This document shows positions 3,486-16,886 of a stretch of DNA of 24,389 bases, piece by piece (position 1 is the stretch's first letter; each line of letters opens with the position of its first letter). This DNA is from a virus. A program made the translations under genes and the position numbers. The notes beneath the pieces were generated by a model. That model saw only the letters and a list, made by a program, of their open reading frames with translations, had not been told where the DNA came from and searched no databases. The DNA is taken from positions 1 through 24,389 of the IMG/VR virus record IMGVR_UViG_3300006802_000548; one strand, written 5' to 3'.

Positions 3486-5809
3486 TGGCTGTCGCATACG
3501 AGCCCCGCGAACCTGATCGCGGTGAAGCGGAGGCCAAGCTCGTCCGTATGCTCAAGGGCGAGGAGGAGGACGCCCTCGGCTACGCGCAGACGGAGACAAC
3601 CGAACAGCAAATCGAGGCGCTGAAGCGGTACTACGGCGACACCTACGGCGACGAGGAAGAGGGCCGCTCCCAGGTCTGCACCCGGGAAGTGTTTGAGTGC
3701 ATCGAATGGACACGGCCCGATCTGATGCGGGTGTTCGCTTCAGGCGGGCAGGTCGTATTCCTTGAGGAGACGAGCCCCGAGGATGGGCAATTCGCCAAGG
3801 ACGCGGCGGATTATCTGCAATGGATATTCTGGACCGATAACCGCGGTTACGAGATTCTGGACGACTTCGCCTTCGATGGCTTGCTGCATCGGCGCGGTTA
3901 TCTGGCGGTGTACTGGCGCGACAAGGAATACCGCGCCCCGCAAACGCTGACCGGCTTGAACATCATGCAGGTGCAGCAGCTCATGGCTGACCCCAGCGTG
4001 GAGATCATCGGCCAGGACTTCGACCAAGAGTCCGAGGTTGGCGGCATCACGCTGGTTGTGCGCCGCACCAAGAGCCCAGCGCGGGCTGAGATCGTGACCG
4101 TGCCGCCCGAGGACATGCGGTTTAACGGCCGTGCTGTGGACTTGGACCAGGCCCGGTATGTCGGGCGGGTGATCCGCATGATGCGCGGCGAGGTCGCCCG
4201 CATGTGGCCTGAGAAGGCCGACGAGGTTCGGGAGTATAGCGGCAAGGGCGTGGGCCACGGCCAGGGCCGGCGCGGCGATGACGTGAGGGCTGTGCGCTTC
4301 CAGGACAACGACGATGACTTTGAGGCCGATGGCAACGACGCCAGCACCGAACTGGAAATCCTCGAGGAATATTTGAGGGTCGATTTGGACGATGACGGGT
4401 ATCCCGAACTGATCCGGTCCTATCGCTGCGGCGACCTGATGCTGGACTTCGATGAGGTCGAGGAGACGCCGTTCGCGTCTTGGACGCCCATTCGCGTGCC
4501 GCATCGGTTCATGGGCCTGTCGATGCATGACATCGTGGCTGACCTTCAGCGCCGCTCAACGGTGCTGACGCGGGCCGCGCTCGACGCGGTGTATCAGGCG
4601 GTGGTGAACCGCGAGGCATACGACAAGAACCGCGTGCCGCTGGACGAGCTTCTAAGCACGGTGGCGGGCAGCAAGATCGGCGTGGATGGAGCGCCAGGCG
4701 ACGCCATTATGCCGCTCACGGGCGGGCTGGATACGTCCAAGGTGGCGTTTGAGGCCATCAACCAAATGTCGGTCACGCTGGAGAACCGCACCGGCGCCAC
4801 GCGGCAGACGCAGGGGCTTGACCCCGATGCTCTGCTGAAGGGCCCGCACAGCGGCAAGGCGATCGAACTGCTCCAGACCGCAGGAGGGGCGCGCAAGGAG
4901 ATGATCGCGCGCAACATGGCGAGCGGCCTGATGACGCTGTTCTCCAAGCTCTACCGGCTGGTCTGCCGCAACCAGAACGAACCCCGCGCGGCCAAGGTGG
5001 GCGGCAAGTGGGCGCAATTCGATCCGCGCACATGGAACAGCGATCTGCGGGTGCAAATCCATACAGGGCTGGGCACGGGCAACCGCGAGCAGACGGTGAT
5101 GGGCCTGCAAATGGTCATCATGGAGCAGGACAAGATCATTGAGGCGCTGGGACCGGCGAACCCGCTGGTGACGGCGCAACATCGCTTCCGCGCGCTTGAG
5201 GAATTGCTGCGGGCGCTAGGCTATCGCAGCGCTGATCCGTTCTTCGGTGAACCGCCCGAGGGCTGGGCGCCTGAGCCTGGGCCCGACCCGGAAGCGGCGA
5301 AGATACAAGCCGAGATGCAGATGCAGGCCGCCAAGATGGAGATGGAGGCCAAGCAGACGCAGCTCCAATACCAGAAGGACATGGAGCTTGCGGCGCAGCA
5401 GCAGATCGACGAGCGCGAGCGCAATGCGGTGACGGCGGCCAAGGACGAGCGCGACGCGGCGCTGGCGGCGGAGAAGATTGCGCTGGATGCCGAGCGGCTT
5501 GAGTTTGAGCGGCAGAAGACGGCGGCGGAGCTGGAGCTGAAGGCGCGCGAACTGGAACTGAAGGGCGCGGAAATCGAGTTCAAGGCCAAGGAGGCCGAGG
5601 CGTCCAAGGACCACGAACTGAAGAAGATGGACCGCGACTACCGCAACAAGCGGAAGCTTGCGGCCGATCCGAAGGACGCGGCTGACATGGACGCCGAGGA
5701 CCGCGGCGAGCCGTCCACGTCGAAGGTTCTGTCTGACATCCTGGCGGAGATGAAGCGGCCGGCGAAGATCAAGCGCGGTCGCGATGGCAAGGCGGTGGAG
5801 CTTGAATAG
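3485..5809 (+). CDS. Portal protein, P22/SU10-type, with coiled-coil tail
   Basis: A 774-residue protein forming the dodecameric channel at the capsid vertex for DNA entry and exit; it docks terminase during packaging and the adaptor afterwards. The N-terminal part (YYGDTYGDEEEGRSQVCTRE around residues 40-60, then IEWTRPDLMRVFASG) is characteristic of P22-type podovirus portals. The central wing/clip region continues to about residue 580. Residues about 600-715 are a long charged coiled coil rich in Glu, Lys, Gln and Met, comparable to the barrel helices of long P22-type portals. Length is somewhat above P22 gp1 (725). The stop overlaps the GTG of the next gene. Confidence 0.93.
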   Translation: MAVAYEPREPDRGEAEAKLVRMLKGEEEDALGYAQTETTEQQIEALKRYYGDTYGDEEEGRSQVCTREVFECIEWTRPDLMRVFASGGQVVFLEETSPEDGQFAKDAADYLQWIFWTDNRGYEILDDFAFDGLLHRRGYLAVYWRDKEYRAPQTLTGLNIMQVQQLMADPSVEIIGQDFDQESEVGGITLVVRRTKSPARAEIVTVPPEDMRFNGRAVDLDQARYVGRVIRMMRGEVARMWPEKADEVREYSGKGVGHGQGRRGDDVRAVRFQDNDDDFEADGNDASTELEILEEYLRVDLDDDGYPELIRSYRCGDLMLDFDEVEETPFASWTPIRVPHRFMGLSMHDIVADLQRRSTVLTRAALDAVYQAVVNREAYDKNRVPLDELLSTVAGSKIGVDGAPGDAIMPLTGGLDTSKVAFEAINQMSVTLENRTGATRQTQGLDPDALLKGPHSGKAIELLQTAGGARKEMIARNMASGLMTLFSKLYRLVCRNQNEPRAAKVGGKWAQFDPRTWNSDLRVQIHTGLGTGNREQTVMGLQMVIMEQDKIIEALGPANPLVTAQHRFRALEELLRALGYRSADPFFGEPPEGWAPEPGPDPEAAKIQAEMQMQAAKMEMEAKQTQLQYQKDMELAAQQQIDERERNAVTAAKDERDAALAAEKIALDAERLEFERQKTAAELELKARELELKGAEIEFKAKEAEASKDHELKKMDRDYRNKRKLAADPKDAADMDAEDRGEPSTSKVLSDILAEMKRPAKIKRGRDGKAVELE

Positions 5810-7834: not shown

Positions 7835-8121
7835 ATGAGAGACTAGCGCGGCTGAGCGATGCGCTCGCTGCGGCAGCGGACGCGCGGCACATGTCCACCA
7901 CGGACGTGTGGGGCCGTGCGTGGGATGATTTTGAGCGGGAGCTGGTGGACCGGCTGCTCAAGTGTGGGCCTGAGGATGACGGCGTGCGGTATCGCCTGCA
8001 GGTGGCTGTGGAGACGGCTAGGCATGTGAGACGGACGATCGAACACGAGGGCCGGCGTGTCGATGCGCTGCAGAAGGACATCGACTTGATTGAAGGGCGC
8101 AAGCCCTATGCGGTGGCATAA
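7831..8121 (+). CDS. Small conserved head-region protein
   Basis: A 96-residue all-helical protein, ATG 7831 overlapping the preceding stop as ATGA. The C-terminal half (RYRLQVAVETARHVRRTIEH, then R-V-D-A-L ... IEGRKPYA) has a pattern I associate with small proteins found just before scaffold genes in related podoviruses. It is charged, with no membrane segment. Its stop overlaps the scaffold start. No function is known to me; an assembly accessory role would fit the position. Confidence 0.6.
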   Translation: MNERLARLSDALAAAADARHMSTTDVWGRAWDDFERELVDRLLKCGPEDDGVRYRLQVAVETARHVRRTIEHEGRRVDALQKDIDLIEGRKPYAVA

Positions 8122-9182
8122 TGGCAGAGAACCAAGAGATGGCTGGCGAGGACGCTAGCTTGGACGCAGCTACGGCCCGCATCATGGGCATCGGCATGGC
8201 CAATCTCGTGCAAGACGAGTCCAAGTTGGACCGGCTTGAGAACACGAGCGGCGAGGTCGATCTCAACGATGAGCAGGGGACCACTGACCTAGAACAGATT
8301 GAGCGCAGCGAGGCGCTTAAGGCCGAGGAGGCCGAAGGGGACGGCGAGGACGCCGGCGCGGGGGAGGAGCCCGCAACATTCATCGAGCTTCCATCGGACG
8401 AGGAAGGCAAGGAGGCGGAGCGGGTTCCGCTTGCCGAGGCCGTGGAAGCGATCAAGCAATATCGCCAGTTTCAGGGGGATATTGCGACAGCGGTTACCCG
8501 CGTCGAGGAAGAGGCATACGTCAAGCAGGATGCCTTGTTGAGAGAGACAAAGTCGGTGTTCGATGTCGTGGCGCAAAACGCCCGCGTGACATTGGCGGCG
8601 ATGGACGCTTATCTTCCGCAAGAGCCTGACAAGATCATGCTCGACCGAAATAGCGGGTACTACGATCCCGAGGGCTATCACAACGCCAAAATCTACTACG
8701 ACAGCTACAAAGCCTACCGCGAACAGGTGGTGGAGAAGCTGAAGGAAGCGGAGAAAGGCGTTGCACTGAGCACCCAATACGAAAAGGCAGAGTTCGAACG
8801 CCGGGAGCACGCCAAGACGGCGCGCTTTATATCTGGCTGGGACAAGCCCGAGGTGCGCGAGGCGCGCAAGGGCGAGATTCTGGACATTCTGTCGAAGCGT
8901 TACGGCGTCACCAAGGAAGACTTGGACGACATCGTGGACGTGAAGGCTTGGCGCATGATGAACGACCTCGCCAACATGGCGAAGGCCGTGCAGAAGGCGC
9001 CGGAAGTGCGCAAGGCGGTACAAGAGAAGGCGGCCAAGCTTGTTCAAGGCAAGCTGCCGCCGAGAGACACCGGCAATGGCCGGTTCGTCAGCGAAGCACG
9101 GGCTGAGTTGAAGAAATCGGGATCGGAGGACGCGTTCGCGAATTACCTCCAGAGAGCTGGCGCCTCACAGCGCCGGAAGTAA
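8121..9182 (+). CDS. Scaffolding protein
   Basis: A 353-residue protein expected to direct coat assembly inside the procapsid and then leave. It lies immediately upstream of the major capsid gene, the usual scaffold position. The N-terminal 110 residues are very acidic and low complexity (many Glu, Asp, Ala, Gly). Residues about 110-300 are charged helices with coiled-coil character. The C-terminus is basic (GNGRFVSEARAELKKSG ... YLQRAGASQRRK), as expected for a coat-binding helix in P22-like scaffolds. No protease motif is seen. Assignment rests on position, composition and tail motif. Confidence 0.8.
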   Translation: MAENQEMAGEDASLDAATARIMGIGMANLVQDESKLDRLENTSGEVDLNDEQGTTDLEQIERSEALKAEEAEGDGEDAGAGEEPATFIELPSDEEGKEAERVPLAEAVEAIKQYRQFQGDIATAVTRVEEEAYVKQDALLRETKSVFDVVAQNARVTLAAMDAYLPQEPDKIMLDRNSGYYDPEGYHNAKIYYDSYKAYREQVVEKLKEAEKGVALSTQYEKAEFERREHAKTARFISGWDKPEVREARKGEILDILSKRYGVTKEDLDDIVDVKAWRMMNDLANMAKAVQKAPEVRKAVQEKAAKLVQGKLPPRDTGNGRFVSEARAELKKSGSEDAFANYLQRAGASQRRK

Positions 9183-9213: not shown

Positions 9214-9294
9214 ATGGTCAGCACGACCTATAGCACTTACGAGCAGATCGGTATCCGGGAAGACCTCTCGGACGCGATCTATGATATTTCGCCT
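9214..9294 (+). CDS. Major capsid protein, exon 1 of 3 (DUF5309/SU10-type)
   Basis: Exon 1 encodes the first 27 residues (MVSTTYSTYEQIG ... LSDAIYDISP). The Y-x-x-x-G-x-R-E-D-L-x-x-x-I-x-x-I-x-P pattern is the usual N-terminus of DUF5309 (SU10-type) major capsid proteins, where it is followed by T-E-T-P-F. Here the frame instead hits TAA at once; T-E-T-P-F resumes at 10222. The exon ends in GCCT, which pairs with GGGC at 9304-9307 with a U-G pair at the splice site, the group I P1 rule. Unspliced RNA could yield only a 27-residue peptide. The joined protein, 27+229+77 residues, has normal family length (333). Confidence 0.88.
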
Positions 9295-10221
9295 TAATCA
9301 GTAGGGCCATTGACGTAGAGGAACAATAACGTACATTGCACGCATGGAAATCAAGTGCGTGCAGTGTGGCAAGGGCTTTGACGTTTTGCCTTATCGGGCG
9401 GCGACGGCGAAGTTCTGTAGCTATGAGTGCCGAGGCGACTGGCGCCGGATCAATTACCGGGGGGAGGCCAACCCCCGCTGGACTGGCGGCAAGCGCTCAA
9501 AGAAGTGCCAAGGGTGCGGCGTCACGATGGAATGGAGCGGGGAACCGATCTCCACCTTTCGGAAGCGCAAGTTTTGCACCAAGGCGTGTGCGGACGAGCA
9601 CGGCTTCAGGTACTCAGGTGAACAACACCCAAATTGGACTGGCGGAAACCGGAAGCGACCCAACCAACAAGCGGCTTGGGCGGCTCAGGTCATTAGCCGG
9701 GACAAGGCGACGTGCCGGACCTGCGGTGCGGTTGGCGTGGAGCTTCATGCTCACCACGTCAAACCGTACAAGGATCACCCGGAACTTCGCTGGCAGGTCA
9801 GCAATGGGCTCACGCTCTGCGCTCGCTGTCATTGGGCGATACACTCTGCGTCAAATGCAAATGCGGTGAATTCGGGGAACCCTCAGCACGAATTGGGTGG
9901 TGGGAATCCCGAGCCAAGCCCAGACCGAAAGGTCCGGGAAGGTGTAACGACTAGAGGACGAGCCTACAGGCGCGTTGAAGGTCCCTGCCGGAAGTGCGGC
10001 GCGTTCGTTTCACGACGAGCGAGCAGCGCGGTCGGTCAGAACCTCTTTTGCTCCAAATCATGTGCGTCAAGCTTCAATGTGAAGGCGGGCAGGATCGGGA
10101 GGCAAAAGCGCCCAAGGCAGTAACGCCTCCACGAGCGCCGCACCAGAAACGGGTGATATAGTCTGAGCAGCCGGGAAACCGGTTGAAGCGAGGGATAAAG
10201 AGCCTTCGCGGTAACAAACTG
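9295..10221 (+). ncRNA. Group I intron 1 in the capsid gene (td-like core)
   Basis: A 927-nt self-splicing intron. P1: exon GCCT (9291-9294) with GGGC (9304-9307), U-G at the cut. P10: TCAGT (9298-9302) with the exon 2 start ACTGA (10222-10226). Core: AATCCCGAGCCAAGCC (9905-9920, Q/P4-P6), P6 hairpin GACC-GAAA-GGTC (9923-9934), P7 GACTA (9949-9953) with TAGTC (10159-10163), inside the typical GATATAGTC box. P9 is AGCCGG-GAAA-CCGGTT (10169-10184) and a further stem is GCGAGGG/CCTTCGC (10188-10194/10203-10209). The last base is G. The layout resembles phage T4 td-type introns. It enters between codons 27 and 28 (phase 0). Confidence 0.9.
9344..10123 (+). CDS. HNH homing endonuclease inside intron 1, triple zinc finger
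   Basis: A 259-residue endonuclease likely to cut intronless capsid alleles. Two zinc-finger repeats come first (C5/C8/C25/C29 and C55/C58/C78/C82), each followed by a NPRWTGG or HPNWTGG motif. The HNH domain spans about 111-168: C124/C127, H137-H138, N154, C159/C162, H163 and H167. Residues about 172-210 are encoded by the ribozyme core. After this comes a third finger of the same design (C215/C218/C236/C240), showing that the frame is used beyond the core. No good ribosome site precedes ATG 9344 (GAGGA lies about 20 nt away), so the start is less sure. Confidence 0.87.
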   Translation: MEIKCVQCGKGFDVLPYRAATAKFCSYECRGDWRRINYRGEANPRWTGGKRSKKCQGCGVTMEWSGEPISTFRKRKFCTKACADEHGFRYSGEQHPNWTGGNRKRPNQQAAWAAQVISRDKATCRTCGAVGVELHAHHVKPYKDHPELRWQVSNGLTLCARCHWAIHSASNANAVNSGNPQHELGGGNPEPSPDRKVREGVTTRGRAYRRVEGPCRKCGAFVSRRASSAVGQNLFCSKSCASSFNVKAGRIGRQKRPRQ

Positions 10222-10908
10222 ACTGAAACGCCGTTTATGACGACTTGCCGCCGCGGTGCGCCGGCCAAGAACCGTTTCATCGAATGGCAAAAGGACGCCC
10301 TGGCATCGGCAACGGTGGTCGGGTCGTTCGCGTATGAAGGCGAGGACGCGGTTGCGCTCACGGCAACGCCAACCTCTCGCCTGCGGAACTACTGCCAGAT
10401 CAACGCCAAGGCCATCATCGTGTCCGGTACTGCTAACGCAGTGACGACCGCCGGCCGCGAGAAGGAACTGGCGTACCAAATCGCGAAGCGCTCGAAAGAG
10501 ATGAAGCGCGATATGGAAAAGCAGATGACGGGCAACAACGCGTCGTCTGCGGGTACTGCGGCAACGACTGGCCGCCGCTCGGCGGGCTTCGAAGCGTGGA
10601 TCACCACGAACGGGCTCTACGGCGGCACGGCGGGCGCCACGGACGGTGCGGACGGCGGGTACACCGCTGCAGGCACGGTCACGGCGGCCACTGACGGCTC
10701 ATCGTCCAACCTCGTGACCTTCACCGAAGCGCGGTTGAAGTCGGTCATCGCCCTTTGCTGGGCGGCGGGCGGCCAACCGTCAACGCTGATGGTGGGTCCG
10801 TGGAACAAGCGGGCGGTGTCGGCGTTCAGCGGCATCACGACCAAGTACAGCGACTTTGGCAACAATCCGGCTAACCCTGGATCGCTCGCCATCGTCGCCG
10901 CGGCGGAT
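10222..10908 (+). CDS. Major capsid protein, exon 2 of 3 (DUF5309/SU10-type)
   Basis: Exon 2 encodes residues 28-256, the bulk of the HK97-like coat. It begins TETPFMTTCRRG and contains FIEWQKDAL, the RLRNYCQINAKAIIVSG segment, ELAYQIAKRSKEMKRDMEK, VIALCWAAGGQPSTLMVGP and the IVAAAD end. These match the DUF5309 family in order. A naive gene call would start earlier in the intron and end at TGA 10933-10935, adding eight intron-encoded residues and losing the normal ends. The exon ends in GCGGAT, paired with GTTCGC (10941-10946) in intron 2, again with U-G at the cut. Confidence 0.93.
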
Positions 10909-11644
10909 AAGCAAGAGTGGGCCCTCGCGGCCTGATAAATGTTCGCCTAAAACCTTACTATATGCTGGAAACCCCTAAAGCCTCGGGTACCAAATCAGTG
11001 TACAACTCTGATTATGGTGACAATCCCGCAGGATGGAACAATGGGCAATCAGCAGGAAAGATTGACAGCCTGGTTTGCAGGTATCTTGGACGGGGAAGGG
11101 TGTATATCCTTTCAGGTCTATACGATGCCCAGCGGCCTAATTCGTATCACTCCATTCCTCTGCATCACTAATTCCGATGCGGGGGTGCTAAAGCACTCGC
11201 AAGAGTGGCTGGACATGGCGACCAAAGACGCCAGGTTCGGCAAGCCACGCATCTGCAAAAGCAAAGGGACTAACAAGCCCTGCATCACGATCCGGGTTGA
11301 CGGCGTTGGGTGTAGGCCGGTCCTGGAGCAATTGCTCCCCTATCTGAGGTCAGATCAGAAGCGGCGCAGTGCAGAGGTCGTGCTGGAGTTCTTCGCTAGT
11401 CGGGACAAACACCTGATTAAGCGGGACGCTCGCGGACGTATTCAGCGAGACGGATACACCCGTGCGGAGGTGGAGCTTGTAAGCTCAATCCGGACGCACA
11501 AGGCGGCAAAATCCTCAGAGGCCATATGTAGGGCCCCGAACGTAATCGGGTGAAGATATGGTCCGACCCTACGGGAAACCGTAGGAGGCCGGCAGAACTA
11601 GAAATGACCGGCACGCCGCCCGCAAGGGCGGAGGTAACAGAAAG
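10909..11644 (+). ncRNA. Group I intron 2 in the capsid gene, different subclass
   Basis: A 736-nt intron. P1: GCGGAT (10903-10908) with GTTCGC (10941-10946), with a nested stem GGGCC/GGCCT (10919-10923/10929-10933). P10: ATAAAT (10935-10940) with the exon 3 start ATTTAT (11645-11650), 6 perfect pairs. The core has the AATCAGCAGG box (11046-11055), P7 GGCCATA (11520-11526) with TATGGTC (11557-11563), P8 CCCGA/TCGGG (11535-11539/11546-11550) and P9 CCTACGG-GAAA-CCGTAGG (11568-11585). The last base is G. The core differs from intron 1 and resembles introns carrying LAGLIDADG enzymes. Insertion is phase 0, after an Asp codon. Confidence 0.88.
11041..11553 (+). CDS. LAGLIDADG homing endonuclease inside intron 2
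   Basis: A 170-residue protein with a single LAGLIDADG-type motif, AWFAGILDGEG, at residues 10-20; the Asp/Glu near its end is the metal-binding position. One motif implies a homodimer that cuts a semi-palindromic site. The ATG at 11041 is chosen over 11014 because AGGA (11030-11033) sits 7 nt upstream and the motif then lies at the usual N-terminal place. The rest alternates beta and helical segments (FLCITNSD, CITIRVDG, VLEFFASRDKHLIK). The last 11 codons run through the P7 and P8 sequences of the ribozyme, and the TGA stop (11551-11553) overlaps the GAAGATATGG box. Confidence 0.9.
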   Translation: MGNQQERLTAWFAGILDGEGCISFQVYTMPSGLIRITPFLCITNSDAGVLKHSQEWLDMATKDARFGKPRICKSKGTNKPCITIRVDGVGCRPVLEQLLPYLRSDQKRRSAEVVLEFFASRDKHLIKRDARGRIQRDGYTRAEVELVSSIRTHKAAKSSEAICRAPNVIG

Positions 11645-11878
11645 ATTTATCTCTCGGACTTCGGCAAGCTGCAGGTCGTGCCTAACCGCTTTTCGCGGGA
11701 CCGCACGGCGCTGCTGATCGACTGGGAATACTGGTCGATCCACTACCTGCGGCCGTTCTTCATCCAAGAGATCGCCAAGACCGGCGACGCGGAAAAGCGG
11801 CAAATGCTGTGTGAATGGACGCTGTGCTCGAAAAACGAGGCGGCGTCAGGGAAACATGGGGATCTCCGGACTTCTTAG
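11645..11878 (+). CDS. Major capsid protein, exon 3 of 3 (DUF5309/SU10-type)
   Basis: Exon 3 encodes the last 77 residues. Joined after ...AAAD it reads IYLSDFGKLQVVPNRFSRDR, then LLIDWEYW, LRPFFIQEIAKTGDAEKRQM and NEAASGKHGDL, matching the DUF5309 C-terminus through its natural end at TAG 11876-11878. The splice position is fixed by the P10 pairing ATTTAT with ATAAAT and by the G at 11644. In other frames or taken alone, the only start codon here lies well inside the domain, so an unaware gene call would report a short orphan protein. Confidence 0.92.
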   Translation: MYLSDFGKLQVVPNRFSRDRTALLIDWEYWSIHYLRPFFIQEIAKTGDAEKRQMLCEWTLCSKNEAASGKHGDLRTS

Positions 11879-11890
11879 AACTTGTAAATA

Positions 11891-11921
11891 CCTTGGGATC
11901 GGCTTATGGTCGGTCCCAAGG
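11891..11921 (+). promoter_or_regulatory. Hairpin covering the Shine-Dalgarno of the free-standing HNH gene
   Basis: CCTTGGGA (11891-11898) pairs perfectly with TCCCAAGG (11914-11921), an 8-bp stem with a 15-nt loop. The AAGG of the AAGGAG ribosome site (11918-11923) lies in the 3' arm. No U tract follows, so it does not look like a terminator. It would keep the endonuclease poorly translated on long late transcripts from the capsid gene, as is known for T4 homing endonuclease genes. Confidence 0.6.
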
Positions 11922-11929
11922 AGTACAAG

Positions 11930-12541
11930 ATGTCCAAGAACCGGAATTGCTACGAACCGGACTGTGGCGGTGTCGTGTGGGCCGATGGCCTATGCAATAG
12001 GCACTACATGCGCCGCTACAGAACGGGGGTGACGAAAGACGGCCCGCGCGCGCGCTCTCCGTTCGAGGCGCGCCTGTGGGGTAAGATTGATGTGCGCGGC
12101 CCAGACGAATGCTGGGAGTGGAAGGCGCCGTGCAAACAAAGTGGCTACGGCTGGATAGGCACGGGCACTCGCAGGGGCAGAATGGTTCTTGCGCATCGTG
12201 CAGTATGGGAGCTGGAGAACGGCCCCATTCCGCCGCGCAAAGGCAAGGGCCACGGTGGCGTCATAATGCACACTTGCGACAATCGCTTGTGCTGTAACCC
12301 CGCGCACCTGCGATTGGGTACGCAGAAAGAAAACGTGGCTGACATGGACAAGAAGGGCCGCCGGCGCGTGTACAGTCCGCCCGGCTCAAAGCGCCCGAAG
12401 GCCAAGCATACAGAAGAACAAATTGCCGCCTTCAAGGCGGACAAGGAAGGCACGATCAAAGAGCGCGCCGCGCGGCATGGCGTCACCATTGGGGTGGCGA
12501 AGCAGGTGCTGTACGCGAAACGATGGAGCCACGTGAAGTGA
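11930..12541 (+). CDS. Free-standing HNH homing endonuclease 1
   Basis: A 203-residue enzyme following the capsid gene. ATG 11930 is preferred to 11906 because AAGGAG (11918-11923) lies 6 nt upstream. An N-terminal zinc-binding segment (C7, C12, C22, H25) is followed by an HNH_3-type nuclease: GPDECWEWK at 57-65, H89, HTCDNRLCCNP at 114-124 and H126. The C-terminus (161-203, TEEQIAAFKADKEG ... VAKQVLYAKRWSHVK) is a predicted helix-turn-helix for target contact. It shares the nuclease type and the end motif with the enzyme at 16389. There is no ribozyme core around it, and the capsid C-terminus upstream is complete, so it is free-standing, not intronic. Confidence 0.88.
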   Translation: MSKNRNCYEPDCGGVVWADGLCNRHYMRRYRTGVTKDGPRARSPFEARLWGKIDVRGPDECWEWKAPCKQSGYGWIGTGTRRGRMVLAHRAVWELENGPIPPRKGKGHGGVIMHTCDNRLCCNPAHLRLGTQKENVADMDKKGRRRVYSPPGSKRPKAKHTEEQIAAFKADKEGTIKERAARHGVTIGVAKQVLYAKRWSHVK

Positions 12542-16339: not shown

Positions 16340-16465
16340 GTGGCCGATTGGCTTGACTGGCTAGACAAGGCGTTTATGATCTTACCCCATGAGCACATAC
16401 GGACCGCCGAAGGGCAACGACACGGAAAGGTTTTGGTCAAAAATCGAGCGGCGCGGGCCGAATGA
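16340..16465 (+). pseudogene. Candidate gene start cut by the HNH insertion
   Basis: GTG 16340 directly follows the preceding TAG, and the frame reads VADWLDWLDKAFMILP for about 16 codons in a style fitting a small phage gene. It then runs into the HNH gene in another frame and ends at TGA 16463-16465. The 49-nt gap before the HNH start is unlike the tight overlaps elsewhere. It may be the remaining 5' end of a gene interrupted by the HNH insertion, or a chance frame. Confidence 0.2.
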
Positions 16466-16886
16466 TTGTTGGCCGTGGTTGGGCACGTTCAATAAGCGTA
16501 CGGGGTACGGCTGCATTCGCGTTGGCTCAATGAAAGACGGAACGCGCCGCCAGGTCGATGCGCACAGGTACATGTGTGAGATTACCTACGGGCTTCCTAA
16601 GGGGAGTCAGGCCCTTCATCACTGCGATAACCGGGCGTGCGTAAACCCTCTGCACCTGTATGTCGGAAGTCACGCTGACAACATGAGGGACATGCAGGTC
16701 AGAGGGCGGGCAAATGGGCGGGGCCTTGCTGGGCAAGGGAACGGCAACGCGAAACTCACAGAGGCGCAGGTGCGGCGAATAAAGAAGTCGCCGCAGTCAT
16801 TGAGCGTACTTTCCAAGAAGTACGGTGTTTCAAAAACGCAAATAAGCTGGATCAAAAACGGGAAGTCGTGGGCGCATGTCGGTTAG
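16389..16886 (+). CDS. Free-standing HNH homing endonuclease 2
   Basis: A 165-residue HNH_3-type enzyme. Key residues: GPNDCWPWLG (23-32), H59, LHHCDNRACVNPLHL at about 76-90 (H77-H78, N81, N86, H89) and the C-terminal helix-turn-helix LTEAQVRRIKKS ... KNGKSWAHVG. It lacks the N-terminal zinc segment of the enzyme at 11930 but shares its nuclease type and its end motif (T-E-x-Q ... W-(S/A)-H-V). No ribosome site is obvious, and no group I core flanks it. Its stop lies inside the adaptor gene start, an 11-nt overlap. Confidence 0.88.
   Translation: MSTYGPPKGNDTERFWSKIERRGPNDCWPWLGTFNKRTGYGCIRVGSMKDGTRRQVDAHRYMCEITYGLPKGSQALHHCDNRACVNPLHLYVGSHADNMRDMQVRGRANGRGLAGQGNGNAKLTEAQVRRIKKSPQSLSVLSKKYGVSKTQISWIKNGKSWAHVG

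Follow-up and report, generated by a model that had tools for sequence, protein, structure and literature searches.

Mobile group I introns in a phage major capsid gene and a putative intron-encoded degradation tag for truncated capsid protein

Background

Introns in bacteriophage capsid genes are already known from mycobacteriophage LittleE and lactococcal phage Tuc2009. Here we describe the major capsid gene of the IMG/VR virus contig IMGVR_UViG_3300006802_000548, the whole of which (24,389 nucleotides, nt) is referred to below as the window; at 9214-11878 on the + strand this gene is divided into three exons by two group I introns, the first carrying an HNH and the second a LAGLIDADG endonuclease gene. 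Translation that ran from the second exon into the unspliced second intron would end in the residues LAA, and we propose that both introns are mobile and that this tail is a degradation signal (degron) for truncated capsid protein, a reading to which we give a probability of roughly 0.7.

Incomplete bacterial proteins are marked for ClpXP or ClpAP by transfer-messenger RNA (tmRNA, or ssrA) tagging, which leaves them with a C-terminal ..(A)LAA, and it is LAA that ClpX reads as the core of this tag. Stalled ribosomes receive the tag in trans, whereas the candidate tag described here would be encoded in cis by an intron and followed by a normal stop codon. In introns of the T4 td type, an in-frame stop shortly past the start of the intron prevents ribosomes from reaching the core, an arrangement which the first intron of the window resembles; we know of no degron-like tail in td-type introns.

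Splicing of the LittleE (JF937101) capsid intron has been proven by reverse transcription PCR and N-terminal sequencing (PMC3706429). There too the interrupted gene is that of a major capsid protein, and the intron, probably of group I, carries a LAGLIDADG-like endonuclease; but LittleE is an actinobacterial phage with an HK97-type capsid, it has a single intron, and its endonuclease lies on the opposite strand (PMC3706429). The LittleE intron reads through to WNSVATAAA-stop, likewise alanine-ended, a tail of which the available part of PMC3706429 makes no mention. In Tuc2009 (NC_002703), an HNH-bearing group I intron lies in the major head protein gene mp4, but the insertion follows 55 codons and the tail is FPAWS-stop, with no LAA. 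Bacillus phage Moonbeam has two endonuclease-bearing group I introns per gene, in two genes, the hosts being terminase and DNA polymerase rather than capsid (PMC4299906). No precedent for an intron-encoded degradation tag was found in the literature searched, a provisional result given its partial coverage.

Results and discussion

A capsid gene in three exons

Three stretches of the window match consecutive parts of one capsid profile, phrog_1328, in order:

9214-9294, + strand: capsid exon 1, 27 aa, C-terminal ..DISP; phrog_1328 positions 7-33, E 0.0016; colinear with relatives
10222-10908, + strand: capsid exon 2, 229 aa; SU10_MCP (PF17236) E 1.7e-49; phrog_1328 positions 34-215
11645-11878, + strand: capsid exon 3, 77 aa plus stop; SU10_MCP E 9.7e-18 (11678-11875); phrog_1328 positions 244-306

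Joined, they give a protein of 333 residues with no internal stop and no gap, over the whole of which the SU10/DUF5309 major capsid profile matches. A first-pass annotation of the window had put forward this three-exon structure, the two group I introns, the capsid family and the gap-free 333-residue product; all of these are borne out, and its splice sites prove correct to the base, as judged from intronless relatives, introns at the same sites elsewhere and covariation of the P3 and P7 helices. Its suggested check, alignment of the joined protein to the capsid family, gave a clear outcome: all 80 IMG/VR capsid relatives fetched are uninterrupted (39-75% identical) and align over both junctions (ISP/TETP and AAD/IYLSDFG, the slash marking the junction). 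In one of these (L002, 74% identical; L numbers denote contigs), the nucleotide alignment breaks off at 10907 and, after a single intervening base, resumes where predicted, at 11645. Exact excision of both introns thus restores the form of the gene seen in intronless relatives. Compared at the DNA level with the phage collection, the region matched only Pseudomonas capsid exons, at 71%. The expectation that a standard gene call would break up the gene and miss exon 1 also holds, the open reading frame (ORF) list containing a 250-aa ORF from 10183, a 66-aa ORF from 11678 and none of at least 60 aa for exon 1.

Both inserts are group I introns

Pairings in P1, P10, P3 and P7 that covary with distant introns confirm, at the level of predicted structure, that both inserts are group I introns. 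Each has the U.G pair of P1 at the 5' splice site, a terminal G and a P10, and the exon-end U, intron-end G and the P1 and P10 pairs noted in the first-pass annotation are all present in the sequence (P1: GCCT/GGGC in intron 1, GCGGAT/GTTCGC in intron 2; P10: ACTGA/TCAGT and ATTTAT/ATAAAT, respectively). Lying beyond that annotation are the homing endonuclease genes of both introns, which overlap the core of the ribozyme, and an in-frame LAA-stop tail at the opening of intron 2. The features of intron 2 are:

10909-11644, + strand: group I intron 2, 736 nt; RF00028 21 bits; P3/P7 covariation; same-site introns in L087, L089, L090 and L101
10909-10935, + strand: read-through tail KQEWALAA plus TGA stop, in the P1 loop; proposed ssrA-like degron on truncated capsid protein
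10935-10940, + strand: P10 guide ATAAAT, pairing with ATTTAT at the start of exon 3, with which it covaries in L089 and L101
10941-10946, + strand: P1 guide GTTCGC, pairing with exon 2 end GCGGAT; covaries in L087, L089, L101, L150 and L195
10953-10958, + strand: P3 5' strand CCTTAC, pairing with GTAGGG at 11528-11533
11528-11533, + strand: P3 3' strand GTAGGG, from comparison with related introns
11555-11563, + strand: P7 3' region GATATGGTC; P7 5' GGCCAT at 11520-11525
11041-11553, + strand: LAGLIDADG homing endonuclease ORF (MGNQQERL..WFAGILDGEG); longest ATG form from 11014

The P3 strands of intron 2 (CCUUAC/GUAGGG) correspond in same-site introns to CUUGGC/GCCGAG, CCUGAC/GUCAGG and CUCGAC/GUCGAG, which differ in sequence while each remains fully complementary, and a perfect 6-bp P3 partner stands at the expected position in most of 53 related introns. 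The LAGLIDADG frame starts within the ribozyme core (MGNQQER) and ends in P7/P3/P8. A profile built from seven relatives of this ORF matches I-MsoI (E 1.8e-8) and I-CvuI, and LAGLIDADG_3 is detected in five members of that set of seven.

The features of intron 1 are:

9295-10221, + strand: group I intron 1, 927 nt; in-frame TAA stop immediately; RF00028 31 bits; not in the 80 relatives; same-site introns in L082 and L084
9298-9302, + strand: P10 guide TCAGT, pairing with exon 2 start ACTGA, from the sequence
9304-9307, + strand: P1 guide GGGC, pairing with exon end GCCT; AGGGCC retained in L082 and L084
9344-10123, + strand: HNH endonuclease ORF, 259 aa; PF01844 E 2.2e-6
9862-9868, + strand: P3 5' strand TGCGGTG, pairing with CGCCGCA at 10136-10142
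10136-10142, + strand: P3 3' strand CGCCGCA, from the L082 comparison
10155-10163, + strand: P7 3' region GATATAGTC; P7 5' GACTA at 9949-9953; RF00028 alignment

In L082 the P3 of this intron reads CGGGGTG/CGCCCTG, two pairs being altered on both sides in a compensatory manner. The HNH ORF stretches across P3 5', P4-P6 and P7 5' in the ribozyme, stopping shortly ahead of P3 3'; its frame is kept through the core in L082 (tblastx), so that the core sequence of intron 1 would be doubly constrained. The N and C termini of the HNH ORF have similar CxxC zinc-finger-like ends. A long J7/3 stretch raised the possibility that P3 had been wrongly assigned, but the L082 comparison supports P3 as given; the stretch is probably a P7.1/P7.2-type insertion and the intron a probable member of subgroup IA.

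The Rfam model RF00028 gives 31 bits for intron 1 (E 2.6e-5, 9801-10185) and 21 bits for intron 2 (E 0.027), against a curated gathering cut-off of 50 bits, a score reached nowhere in the window or its relatives, other same-site introns included. We attribute the low scores to the long ORFs that split the core.

Introns at the same sites in distant capsid genes

Same-site introns were found by scanning virus contigs for the P7 3' motif together with conserved exon 2 or exon 3 capsid codons at the right distance. At site 1, introns occupy the identical base in L082, L083 and L086 (whose introns are identical) and in L084; all follow GCCT and end in G, and the exon/guide pair ACAG/CTGT in L084 against ACTG/CAGT in the window is a compensatory change. 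At site 2, introns follow the same Asp codon in L087/L088, L089, L090 and L101, and in the truncated L150 and L195. The P1 pairs at this site are GCGGAT/GTTCGC, ATCGAT/GTCGAT, GCGGAT/GTCCGC and GTCGAT/GTTGAC, and the P10 pairs (ATTTAT/ATAAAT, GTGT/ACAT, ACCTA/TAGGT) track the exon. A further candidate, L085, lacks a full capsid match and was set aside as a probable chance hit.

Blocks of intron DNA are 72-85% identical between the window and same-site loci, as against 38-46% for the capsid proteins. Such similar introns inside distant capsid genes suggest that the introns have moved between distant phages, and, coding for endonucleases and occupying the same sites in distant genes, both look mobile. 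The two were found together at no locus other than the window. In L084 (797-1515), the site-1 intron has the ends of intron 1 with a different middle and ORF, and the endonuclease appears, from this comparison, to have been swapped between introns at site 1. Searching viral contigs with the single sequence of each endonuclease returned no relatives, nor did any phage record match the LAGLIDADG ORF; relatives of the introns were obtained only through patterns linking the ribozyme core to capsid codons.

An in-frame LAA tail at site 2

Unspliced translation from exon 2 into intron 2 gives ..AAD/KQEWALAA-stop, a C-terminus like that of the bacterial ssrA degradation tag. The same holds for every one of the six SU10 site-2 introns, which read through to KQEWALAA, KLIGLAA, RLAA, KLNWALAA, KLAA and KQYRLAA. 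From splice site to stop they measure 24, 21, 12, 24, 12 and 21 nt, each a multiple of 3, whereas from stop to P1 guide the distances (5, 6, 9, 2, 8 and 2 nt) follow no such rule, a pattern that fits a translated and selected peptide. The codons (CTC GCG GCC TGA, TTA GCC GCC TAA, CTT GCC GCT TAG, CTT GCC GCC TAG, CTC GCC GCA TAA and CTC GCG GCG TAA) vary only synonymously across LAA, with all three stop codons in use. By these codon comparisons, the tail is evidently under selection at the protein level.

What purpose might such a tail serve? We propose that the introns home into conserved capsid codons and are spliced out of the mRNA. Because bacterial translation is coupled to transcription, ribosomes would reach an intron ahead of its removal and enter it. 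A ribosome entering at site 1 would immediately encounter a stop codon, freeing a peptide of 27 residues; the product at site 2 would be a 256-residue capsid protein without the last 77 residues, and this form, minus its C-terminal quarter, could still bind its partners and poison shell assembly. It is for this reason, on our proposal, that the P1 loop of intron 2 would encode a short tail in the capsid frame ending in LAA and a stop, mimicking the end of the tmRNA tag. The tail should direct the truncated product to ClpXP or ClpAP, and its destruction would spare the phage, and hence the intron.

It also seems reasonably probable that the arrangement is a general one, group I introns of phage capsid genes encoding in frame and in cis an ssrA-mimicking degron. 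This built-in quality control would remove truncated capsid protein translated from unspliced mRNA, which poisons assembly, and would let the intron be tolerated in the structural gene with the highest expression. This may answer an old puzzle, namely how an intron survives in a gene with hundreds of product copies, truncated forms of which would jam assembly. If correct, an intron-borne signal for protein destruction would connect bacterial proteolysis with translation and RNA splicing, and mobile introns would be seen to evolve toward doing less harm to the host gene. In practical terms, LAA-stop in a P1 loop offers a sequence flag for capsid introns that gene callers break up.

Host genes of tailed introns

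All 15 introns with a strict LAA tail and a nameable host lie in head-protein genes, of five families:

phrog_1328, SU10-type capsid: window, L087, L089, L101, L150, L195
phrog_1357: L117, L131 (weak), L192, L254, L260, L298
phrog_334: L368
phrog_1623, virion structural: L255
phrog_10, HK97-type capsid: L257

Host-gene calls cover most of the introns; L254, L255, L257 and L260 come from a scan that required the tail, and so show host range rather than frequency. Near-miss tails ending in MAA and EAA likewise have phrog_1357 hosts, and introns that share the core but lie in DNA polymerase, tape-measure, terminase, exonuclease or Sak4-like genes have no LAA tail. In introns inserted very early in the gene, such as that at site 1 (27 residues in) and that of Tuc2009 (55 residues in), the read-through stops untagged.

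These data bear on the best-surviving alternative, that these are ordinary mobile group I introns whose LAA tail is a neutral, functionless relic of common descent. The introns and their homing, which are fully supported, accord with it, as does the single insertion site that the six SU10 cases have in common. It is nevertheless unlikely, since the three residues have been kept while codons, stop and loop length changed, the last always by multiples of 3, and since the tail recurs at other sites in four further head-protein families.

Several observations weigh against the degron proposal. The evidence for this phage is sequence only, from which we infer splicing, the amount of read-through product, its degradation and the harm it would do if left undegraded. 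The six SU10 tails share an insertion site and descent, and are thus not independent events; the assignment of L131 to a head protein is weak (E 0.0037); and head-gene introns in L155, L158, L163 and L112 lack LAA, as does the Tuc2009 capsid intron with its FPAWS ending and 55-aa product. Tails of the weaker xAA type are present in one tape-measure gene (L361, LTAWAA) and one DnaB-like gene (L375, KYNTAA), and a few pattern-found LAA cases (L256, L259), in which LAA may be due to chance, have no identifiable host gene. The L310 intron, whose host gene phrog_4088 is of no known function, reads through to EYAIAA; together with L361 and L375 it raises the possibility that the tag idea reaches beyond capsid genes.

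Frequency of LAA tails

Our first collection of 143 distinct introns was gathered by core motif alone, tails being ignored. LAA tails end 8 of the 59 frames entering from ORFs of at least 100 codons, against 1/804 from ORFs of fewer than 60 codons (Fisher 2.6e-9), and the sole short-frame case (L101) is the same SU10 capsid gene cut by a contig end. The background frequency of LAA ends among all ORFs of at least 100 codons in the fetched DNA is 0.56% (19/3394; binomial 1.7e-9). In a second collection (89 introns, gathered with a different core motif), the tail was present in two of 48 long-ORF frames and none of 600 short ones, giving 10/107 against 1/1404 when both are pooled. Within the first collection, xAA tails are found with 11 of 18 head-protein hosts and 0/49 other ORFs (Fisher 2.5e-8). 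L201, with no host gene assignment, was dropped as a near-duplicate. Isolates with related introns, L267 and L266 among them, have no LAA tails, and the read-through of a ribonucleotide-reductase intron in Lactococcus LW81 ends in LKIA.

An alternative reading is that the GCNGCNTAA-like motif acts at the RNA level, being required for P1/P10 to fold or for the 5' splice site to be chosen, and resembles a peptide in appearance only. The stop codon does run into or overlap the P10 guide in L101, L087 and L195. In the out-of-frame control, however, LAA is scarce, which speaks against a motif acting as RNA, the motif being in frame only with long ORFs; third codon positions moreover hold all four bases, six-fold Leu codons are freely used, and the motif is absent where this core is found in DNA polymerase, tape-measure and terminase genes. 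We consider this explanation very improbable.

Equally hard to credit, and marginally more so, is that the short unspliced form is a functional second product, such as a minor shell protein, which the tail serves. The read-through ORFs are long and open, and nothing more direct speaks for it; such a product would be missing a conserved portion of the SU10 fold near the C-terminus (~229-290 of the profile), and what the tails have in common is the degron-like end, not the remainder. That the capsid gene is dead or chimeric, through assembly artefact or decay into a pseudogene, can be dismissed as next to impossible, given exons that are open, tandem and complete, two intact endonuclease ORFs and introns at the same bases in nine other contigs.

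Neighbouring genes and further observations

The capsid gene lies in a structural cluster in the order terminase (phrog_2), portal (phrog_1216), 8121-9182, capsid, head/tail genes. A free-standing HNH_3 endonuclease gene (11906-12541) directly follows the capsid stop codon, its end overlapping the next ORF (12523); roughly the corresponding position in L101 (+955 from the core) is taken by a different endonuclease-like ORF. A second free-standing HNH_3 ORF (16389-16886) stands between structural genes. In L084, a second stretch like capsid residues 8-56 (4389-4529; 43%, E 3e-8) lies about 2 kb past the spliced capsid gene. Finally, the core motif of intron 2 occurs in 47 bacterial genome contigs (L207-L253) from many phyla, most of them without a long upstream ORF, where the hosts would be RNA genes, perhaps those of tRNAs.

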